64,000 nucleotides of DNA from Alkalihalobacillus bogoriensis ATCC BAA-922 (GTDB taxonomy: Bacteria; Bacillota; Bacilli; Bacillales; Bacillaceae_F): assembly GCF_000621445.1 (NCBI RefSeq), contig NZ_KK211278.1, positions 62,001 through 126,000 on the forward strand, written 5' to 3'. This document shows, piece by piece, positions 47,853 to 53,163 of this stretch; position 1 is the first letter of the stretch; every line of letters starts with the position of its first letter. A program made the position numbers and the translations under genes. The notes under the pieces are model-generated. The model had not been told where the DNA came from and did no database searches. It saw only the letters and a list, made by a program, of their open reading frames with translations.

Positions 47853-47927
47853 TCCACAGTAGCTCAGTGGTAGAGCTATCGGCTGTTAACCGATCGGTCG
47901 TAGGTTCGAGTCCTACCTGTGGAGCCA
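47853..47927 (+). tRNA. tRNA-Asn (GTT)
   Basis: 75 nt, cloverleaf with acceptor TCCACAG/CTGTGGA, anticodon GTT in CTGTTAA, encoded CCA. Confidence 0.96.
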
Positions 47928-47930
47928 TTT

Positions 47931-48007
47931 GGCGGTGTAGCTCAGCTGGCTAGAGCGTACGGTTCATACCCGTGAGGTCGGGGGTTCGATCCCCTCCGCC
48001 GCTACCA
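47931..48007 (+). tRNA. tRNA-Met (CAT), elongator type
   Basis: 77 nt, anticodon loop TTCATAC, T-arm GGGGGTTCGATCCCC, encoded CCA. The sequence matches what I recall of Bacillus elongator tRNA-Met; it lacks the initiator CGCGGG start. Confidence 0.93.
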
Positions 48008-48032
48008 ATAATTGAATAGATGGTTTTAATAT

Positions 48033-48109
48033 GGCGGTTGTGGCGAAGTGGTTAACGCACCGGATTGTGGCTCCGGCATTCGTGGGTTCGATTCCCATCA
48101 ATCGCCCCA
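48033..48109 (+). tRNA. tRNA-His (GTG)
   Basis: Eight-base acceptor GGCGGTTG/CAATCGCC including the extra 5' G of tRNA-His, anticodon GTG in TTGTGGC, encoded CCA. Confidence 0.96.
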
Positions 48110-48115
48110 TATATT

Positions 48116-48192
48116 GGACCCTTAGCTCAGTTGGTCAGAGCGGTCGGCTCATAACCGATTGGTCGTAGGTTCGAGTCCTACAGGGTCCACCA
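48116..48192 (+). tRNA. tRNA with CAT anticodon, probably tRNA-Ile2 (lysidine type)
   Basis: 77 nt, acceptor GGACCCT/AGGGTCC, anticodon loop CTCATAA, encoded CCA. The GGACC start and CGGCTCATAACCG stem resemble Bacillus tRNA-Ile2, whose C34 is converted to lysidine to read AUA. The alternative is a second tRNA-Met. Confidence 0.85.
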
Positions 48193-48227
48193 TTATAACG
48201 AGGGACAAGCCCTCAAACGATAAATGC

Positions 48228-48320
48228 GGAGGAATACCCAAGTCCGGCTGAAGGGATCGGTCTTGAAAACCGACAGGCGGGTTAAACCGCGCGGGGGTTC
48301 GAATCCCTCTTCCTCCGCCA
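48228..48320 (+). tRNA. tRNA-Ser (TGA)
   Basis: 93 nt class II tRNA with long variable arm (GGCGGGTTAAACCGCG region), anticodon TGA in CTTGAAA, acceptor GGAGGAA/TTCCTCC, encoded CCA. Confidence 0.96.
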
Positions 48321-50803: not shown

Positions 50804-50832
50804 TTTAAATGGGAGAGGAGTTATGGTATACT
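50804..50832 (+). promoter_or_regulatory. Extended -10 promoter of the RNA upstream of pbpA
   Basis: TTATGGTATACT carries the TGn extension before TATACT (50827-50832); TTTAAA at 50804-50809 is a weak -35 box at 17 bases. Confidence 0.6.
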
Positions 50833-50838
50833 AACAAC

Positions 50839-51061
50839 AATCATATAAACAAGAAGCCTGCCGTGTTTGTTAGCTTCTCTTTGTTTCGAACCGTGAATAA
50901 GAAACGGGAGCTCCACATTAACCGGTTGACAACAAGCCTCTCGTTGTGGAAGTTGGAGATTGGTTTGCGAGCACCCACCTGCGAGAGTAGGTTCTTGAAA
51001 CATCGAGGCAACGGCATTCGCGGGTTTCCGTTTTAGACACCAACAACGCTGTTAGGTGTCT
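50839..51061 (+). ncRNA. Unidentified structured RNA with a 5S rRNA-like block
   Basis: About 220 nt between its own promoter and a hairpin AGACACC/GGTGTCT (51035-51061). It holds AAACAAGAAGC/GCTTC..TTGTTT hairpin (50847-50886) with TGCCGT in its loop, complementary to ACGGCA at 51011-51016. A second helix is CTCCA (50911)/TGGAG (50954) enclosing ACAAC/GTTGT. TGCGAGAGTAGG at 50980-50991 is the loop E block of 5S rRNA, and GGAAGTT at 50948 is another 5S-like piece. No ORF with RBS fits. It could also be a pbpA leader. I do not recognise a known family. Confidence 0.6.
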
Positions 51062-51108
51062 ATTGTCATGTCTTATAATGAATAAACAGATAAAGAAGGG
51101 AAGAAACG

Positions 51109-53163
51109 ATGGGGAATAATAAAAAGAAGAAACGTAATCATGTACCTGCACGCCTTAATTTCCTTTTTTTAGTTGTATTTCTTTTGTTTTCTGCACTTAT
51201 ATTACGATTAGGTGTTGTCCAAATTGTACAAGGGGAAGAATACGTAAAAGAGCTAGAACGCACGACAAATGTTACAGCTAGAATCGATGCACCACGAGGA
51301 TTAATGTATGATCGCTTTGGTAATATTGTCGTTGATAATGAATTAGAATTATCGATTACGTACACGCCACAAAAAAAGACGACACATGCGGAAAAATTAG
51401 AAGTCGCACAAAAATTAGAAAAGTTAATCGAAGTGGATGAGGAAATGATTGATAATATTATTCCACGCGACAGAATCGATTATTGGATTATTACTCGTCC
51501 GGATGAAGCGAAAGAAAAGCTTACAGATGAAGAACGTCGAAAGATAAATGACCCGACAGAAGAGTACAGATTAACGGTTGAGAGAATTACGGATGAAGAT
51601 TTAAGTGAAATTACAAAGCAAGAAGAGCGGGTGCTCGCAATTAAACGCGAAATGGATCGTGGCTATGCATTAGCACCACAACGAATTAAGCAAGGGATTA
51701 CAGAAGAAGAAGCTCATATTGTGGGAGAGCACTTGTTTGAGCTTCCAGGTGTCGATATTTTACGAGATTCTACGAGAACGTATGTATATGACGATACATT
51801 CCGAAGTTTTTTTGGACGGACAGGTTCAATCCCACGCGAAAAGCTAGATTATTATTTATCAAGAGGATATGAACGGTCTGACCAAGTCGGTACGAGTTTT
51901 CTTGAGCTCCAATATGAAGAAGCGCTCCGTGGTCAAAAAGCATTAGTTGAAAGTGTGACAAGTCGAGGGGCCGTTGTTGGTGAACGAGAACAACTAGGTC
52001 AACGTGGGAACGACTTAGTGTTAACTGTTGATATGGAGCTTCAACAAATTGTAGAAGGTATTGTAAAAAAAGAAGTTGAAACAGGCGCAGCCTCATTTAT
52101 CGATGAAAAAGCAGCCTATATCGTAATGATGAATCCGAAAACAGGTGAAATTTTAGCGATGAACGGCTATGAAGATGACACAGGTGCTTTAAATAAAGCG
52201 TATGCGATGGGGTCATCGATAAAAGGTGCTACAATGTTAATGGGGTTTCATGAAGGCTCCGTTCATCCTAATAAATACATTTATGACCGTCCAATTCAGA
52301 TCGGAGGACAAACAAAAAAGTCAATTTCCAATCTAGGTAGTATTAATGACCTTCAAGCGTTAGAAAAATCCTCGAACGTTTATATGTTTTTTATTGCTAT
52401 GGAAATGGCTGGCTTTCGGTATGGAACGAATTGTTGCTGGAATGATATTCCTGGTACTTATGATAAAATGCGATATTATTATAGTCAGTTTGGATTAGGG
52501 TCTGAAACAGCGATTGATTTGCCATCAGTTTCTACTGGTTTAAGTGGTGGTATTGGTCAAGGGGGGAACTTGCTTGACTTTTCGATTGGCCAGTTTGACA
52601 CGTATACAACATTACAGCTAGCTCAATATATTTCAACAATTGCTAATGACGGATATCGAATGCAACCACATCTCGTTAAAGAAATTCGGCAGCCGAGTCC
52701 CATAAAAGATGAATTAGGACCGGTTGTGTATCAAAATGACCCAAAAATATTAAACCGAATTGATATGAGTGATGCCCATATTAAAAGGGTACAAGACGGA
52801 TTAAAGCGTGTAGTAAACCCAAATCTATCTGGAACATGGAGAAATGCTGGTTTCTCTTATGATGTTGCAGCGAAAACAGGAACAGCCGAAGTTCGTGTCG
52901 CGGTTACAAGAAGTGACGGTACTCGTTACTTAGTTGATGGAACAAACCAAACATTAGTTGCATATGCACCGTTTGATGATCCTGAAATCGCGGTTGCAGT
53001 CGTTGTCCCACATGTTCGTGGGAAAAATCCACATCCATTTTCACGAAATATTTTAAAGCAATCCATGGATGCTTATTTTGAACTAAAAGATAATCGAAAT
53101 GGTCCTCTTTCAAATGGAGAAGAGCGCCCTGTTCAAAATGATGAAGAGGAAGAAAACAATTAA
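51109..53163 (+). CDS. pbpA: Penicillin-binding protein 2A-type transpeptidase (class B PBP)
   Basis: 684 aa. A basic N-terminal tail and one membrane helix (about 15-40) precede the PBP dimer domain (about 58-290, APRGLMYDRFGNIVVDN) and the transpeptidase domain. Active-site motifs: SxxK as SSIK (369-372), SxN as SSN (421-423), KTG (589-591, AAKTGTAE). It cross-links peptidoglycan during side-wall elongation and spore outgrowth in Bacillus. The ATG at 51109 follows GAAGGGAAG. Confidence 0.95.
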   Translation: MGNNKKKKRNHVPARLNFLFLVVFLLFSALILRLGVVQIVQGEEYVKELERTTNVTARIDAPRGLMYDRFGNIVVDNELELSITYTPQKKTTHAEKLEVAQKLEKLIEVDEEMIDNIIPRDRIDYWIITRPDEAKEKLTDEERRKINDPTEEYRLTVERITDEDLSEITKQEERVLAIKREMDRGYALAPQRIKQGITEEEAHIVGEHLFELPGVDILRDSTRTYVYDDTFRSFFGRTGSIPREKLDYYLSRGYERSDQVGTSFLELQYEEALRGQKALVESVTSRGAVVGEREQLGQRGNDLVLTVDMELQQIVEGIVKKEVETGAASFIDEKAAYIVMMNPKTGEILAMNGYEDDTGALNKAYAMGSSIKGATMLMGFHEGSVHPNKYIYDRPIQIGGQTKKSISNLGSINDLQALEKSSNVYMFFIAMEMAGFRYGTNCCWNDIPGTYDKMRYYYSQFGLGSETAIDLPSVSTGLSGGIGQGGNLLDFSIGQFDTYTTLQLAQYISTIANDGYRMQPHLVKEIRQPSPIKDELGPVVYQNDPKILNRIDMSDAHIKRVQDGLKRVVNPNLSGTWRNAGFSYDVAAKTGTAEVRVAVTRSDGTRYLVDGTNQTLVAYAPFDDPEIAVAVVVPHVRGKNPHPFSRNILKQSMDAYFELKDNRNGPLSNGEERPVQNDEEEENN

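Follow-up and report, generated by a model that had tools for sequence, protein, structure and literature searches.

Results and discussion

A 6S RNA between yqgE and pbpA

The window analysed here is a stretch of 64,000 nucleotides, in which a structured RNA, preceded by an extended -10 promoter, lies in a 338-bp gap between yqgE and pbpA (Table 1). The gap is bordered by an MFS gene in the yqgE position, downstream of sodA, and by the gene for a class B penicillin-binding protein (pbpA). An ordinary cluster of five tRNA genes lies upstream of sodA (47853-48317, + strand). The single RNA that Rfam identifies in the gap is 6S/SsrS RNA (RF00013), at 50852-51030 on the + strand, and the match covers the full length of the model (positions 1-187 of 187). 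Its whole-model covariance score of 87.1 bits lies well above the gathering cut-off of 46.4 bits, which places the RNA in RF00013. The pbpA-gap RNA is a 6S RNA, an additional member of a well-known family of small RNAs that restrain RNA polymerase. A preliminary description of this DNA had presented it as an unknown RNA, a view overturned by the clear match, an outcome that it had itself listed as refuting; its suggestion of a regulatory RNA was right, the family being 6S. A match to osmY RNA (51037-51111) was discarded as sub-threshold (18 bits against a gathering score of 46.9), and the 75-aa ORF at 50809-51036, which overlaps the 6S RNA, is unsupported as a gene.

Table 1. Features of the pbpA-gap 6S locus, in window coordinates.
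Feature	Position	Strand	Basis
sigmaA-type promoter, extended -10 (TTTAAA ... TATGGTATACT)	50804-50832	+	motif; extended -10 in aligned relatives
probable 5' extension, putative TSS to 6S domain	50839-50851	+	inferred from -10 position
6S RNA (RF00013), pbpA-linked lineage	50852-51030	+	87.1 bits; covariation in 37 relatives
closing stem, 5' strand	50855-50876	+	pairs with 51006-51026; fold, covariation
helix P2, 5' strand, part of likely pRNA template	50882-50888	+	pairs with 50996-51002; role by analogy with B. subtilis 6S-1 (PMC8876501)
central bubble, 5' side	50889-50905	+	unpaired in consensus fold; inferred pRNA start near 50894-50895
apical (internal) arm	50906-50976	+	consensus fold; majority of covarying pairs
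3'-bubble hairpin, includes "5S-like" 12-mer (50980-50991)	50977-50992	+	paired at every position in 37/37
closing stem, 3' strand	51006-51026	+	fold, covariation
downstream hairpin (TAGACACC/GGTGTCTA)	51034-51062	+	in fold; similar in several relatives

The fold is conserved as a 6S rod

The RNA folds far better than shuffled sequence (-80 kcal/mol, MFE z-score -4.3), and the fold is that of a 6S rod, with a closing stem, a central bubble, an apical arm and a hairpin on the 3' side of the bubble. Closing stem, bubble and apical arm all recur in the consensus fold and are supported by covariation in sets of 12 and of 37 sequences. In the alignment of the 37 pbpA-linked sequences, 93.5% of cells in the consensus rod are paired, as against 37.7-44.4% in slid controls, and two-sided changes occur at 22 of the 52 pairs. 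These compensatory changes maintain pairing across at least five families, bearing out the earlier expectation of a structured RNA with covarying helices in relatives. The 3'-bubble hairpin of the B. subtilis type is present at 50977-50992 in all 37 relatives (100% of cells paired), and its stem is kept while the loop varies.

A pseudoknot between a loop hexamer, TGCCGT (50859), and ACGGCA (51011) had also been proposed. The two are indeed complementary, but each sits in a different strand of the closing stem and TGCCGT is not a loop; the pairing is therefore nested, a slipped register of that stem rather than a pseudoknot. Forcing it costs about 7 kcal/mol relative to the standard pairing of the closing stem, its predicted ensemble probability is about 0, and a pseudoknot is not supported. 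Most relatives retain the complementarity, and 14 sequences of a single family (f25) share one coupled C-G to G-C swap, so that a minor alternative pairing is possible. The swap can also be read in the standard closing stem, where the changed C has a possible partner in a G two bases on; in five sequences, the hexamer is broken at a position whose standard pair still holds.

Promoter and 3' end

The extended -10 promoter reported earlier is confirmed: a TTTAAA box at 50804 is followed, after a 17-nt spacer, by a TATACT box that ends at 50832 and has TG just before it. An extended -10 of the TATG type is present too in the aligned relatives of the first survey. At the other end of the RNA, the closing hairpin that had been noted before pbpA was found at 51034-51062, and it may be a weak terminator or a processing signal. 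A search for a U-run terminator downstream of the 6S RNA found none. The stretch from the 6S RNA to pbpA is poorly conserved among the aligned relatives. Between the hairpin and pbpA lies a TATAAT-like box (window positions 51070-51080), which could be a separate pbpA promoter.

Three 6S genes and a pbpA-linked lineage

This genome has three 6S loci, all above the cut-off: its own 6S-1, which adjoins yrvM (G000:C8, 107 bits), the pbpA-gap copy (C2, 87 bits) and a third copy (C5, 74 bits). The C5 copy (L003:1501-1681, equivalent to G000:C5:200937-201117) has neither aspS/yrvM nor pbpA next to it; a small-protein gene lies upstream and a diguanylate-cyclase-like gene downstream, and it clusters with copies from the same family whose loci differ. 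At least one 6S RNA was found in 60 of the 61 genomes surveyed, and 11 of these 60 carry three copies. Sorted by neighbouring genes, 60 loci lie at aspS/yrvM, 12 between yqgE and pbpA, and 40 elsewhere. One genome (G027), alone among the 61, gave no 6S match though nearly complete; a 6S RNA may have been missed there because stricter filters were used. Another (G009) holds two near-identical, very divergent copies (L111 and L112) that sit on a long branch and lack the usual ACCCAC motif.

Further pbpA-type copies were sought by a pattern search in 399 genomes of the order. The RNA is carried by 25 of the 30 stretches fetched, in every case (25/25) directly before pbpA and mostly also after yqgE; the other five are chance pattern matches. 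The stable 6S position before pbpA is real. No 6S RNA precedes pbpA in the named pbpA contigs of Alkalihalobacillus, Sediminibacillus and Halalkalibacter, and the linkage is therefore not universal.

Three clades appear in a 137-sequence tree: one of the 37 pbpA-linked copies (100/99), one of the 60 aspS-linked copies (100/99) and one of 22 among the remaining copies (100/91). The third was named after the first tree had been seen. That first tree, with only 12 pbpA copies, neither resolved nor rejected the pbpA clade. One member of the third clade (L052) adjoins the genes for a RecQ helicase and a YocK-like protein, the neighbourhood of B. subtilis bsrB (6S-2). The third clade is presumably 6S-2-like, and its recQ/yocK-linked member bsrB-like. 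Two genomes (G008 and G047) each hold aspS-linked, pbpA-linked and third-clade copies; the pbpA copy is thus not merely a relocated third-clade 6S-2. Nor is it an orthologue of 6S-1 (bsrA), since it lies at yqgE-pbpA and falls outside the 60-member aspS clade. Sequence relationships thus lend good support to the view that the pbpA-linked copies represent a 6S lineage distinct from both the 6S-1 clade and the 6S-2-like clade. The pbpA-gap 6S is only mildly unusual, in being one of three copies and in belonging to a separate pbpA-adjacent lineage found in many relatives.

Alternative explanations

The RNA could control pbpA in cis, as a leader (5' UTR), alongside or in place of a 6S role, as the preliminary description had suggested. 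It lies on the pbpA strand, about 80 nt from the pbpA start and without a strong terminator, and its position before pbpA is conserved in 37 genomes. A 6S RNA is the better reading, since the sequence forms a complete 6S with a promoter of its own; paralogues of the same fold sit elsewhere, and both the poor conservation of the 6S-pbpA stretch and the TATAAT-like box within it also speak against a leader, which we consider unlikely. Even less probable is a degenerate, non-functional 6S duplicate: the RNA is one of three copies and, with 87 bits, scores lower than the aspS-linked copy (107 bits), but compensatory changes in at least five families preserve its pairing, and its promoter motif is retained.

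Resemblance to 5S rRNA had led to the idea of a decoy for ribosomal proteins. The 12-mer TGCGAGAGTAGG lies at 50980-50991, with GGAAGTT upstream (50948-50954), as described. Its reported identity to 5S loop E holds for E. coli 5S rRNA and fails for the host, whose own 5S reads TGTGAGAGTAGG, one base off. This mismatch, and the presence of the 12-mer in only 2 of the 112 6S loci surveyed, indicate a chance likeness. With the 12-mer not kept by relatives, the hairpin stem preserved while its loop varies, and no 5S model match at the RNA in the Rfam search of the window, a 5S mimic titrating L5, L18 or L25/Ctc can be set aside.

The best explanation overall, and almost certainly the correct one, is a 6S gene whose RNA would bind sigmaA-RNAP and be released by pRNA synthesis, one of three in the genome and part of a pbpA-anchored lineage.

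Proposed mechanism

RNAs of the 6S family mimic an open promoter, bind the sigmaA holoenzyme and are freed by pRNA synthesis, which opens helix P2 (PMC8876501, PMC11077062). In B. subtilis, 6S-1 (encoded between aspS and yrvM) and 6S-2 both bind sigmaA-RNAP (PMC11077062). By analogy, the pbpA-gap 6S most likely also binds sigmaA-RNAP and is set free through pRNA synthesis. Its own sigmaA promoter would drive its transcription, and the RNA would fold into a rod whose central bubble resembles an open promoter, allowing it to bind the sigmaA-RNA polymerase and compete with promoters. The polymerase would then use the 5' bubble as template for a short pRNA, upon which P2 would open and the RNA would be released. 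The candidate pRNA template likely spans 50881-50895, in the 5' bubble and P2, with a putative pRNA start near 50894-50895. The window lineage lacks four 5'-bubble bases found in one family of pbpA-linked copies, and because of this difference the alignment does not fix the start. When the template is masked in folding, P2 opens in the predicted structure while the other arms and the 3' hairpin stay intact, which is compatible with the pRNA-release mechanism.

Comparison with known 6S RNAs

Two 6S copies have been described for B. subtilis, B. halodurans and others (PMC8414754), and a tandem 6S pair for the B. cereus group (PMC7726162). The literature searched, which lay outside the surveys Barrick 2005 and Wehner 2014, holds no mention of a third or pbpA-linked 6S lineage and describes no Bacilli with more than two copies. 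The pbpA-gap RNA can be struck off the list of supposed unknown RNAs, and some Bacillus relatives carry three 6S RNAs that belong to separate lineages, of which one keeps a stable syntenic place beside pbpA. What 6S-2 does in B. subtilis has long been obscure, and the three-copy genomes therefore lend themselves well to the question of why a bacterium should maintain several 6S RNAs. In part of the Bacillus-type Firmicutes, the pbpA-linked RNA might even be a functionally distinct third kind of 6S, with its own expression, pRNA or promoter preference and possibly coupled to the cell wall through its position at pbpA; we offer this tentatively, as the less probable case.

The pbpA-gap RNA shares with RF00013 the full-length match, the rod with its central bubble and a length of ~180 nt, and shows no difference that would exclude membership. 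It has the same fold as B. subtilis 6S-1 (bsrA, aspS-yrvM), including the 3'-bubble hairpin, but differs from it in locus and in clade (100/99). Like B. subtilis 6S-2 (bsrB), it is a secondary 6S paralogue beside 6S-1, and it falls outside the recQ-linked 22-member clade (100/91) in a tree built without B. subtilis sequences, bsrB included.
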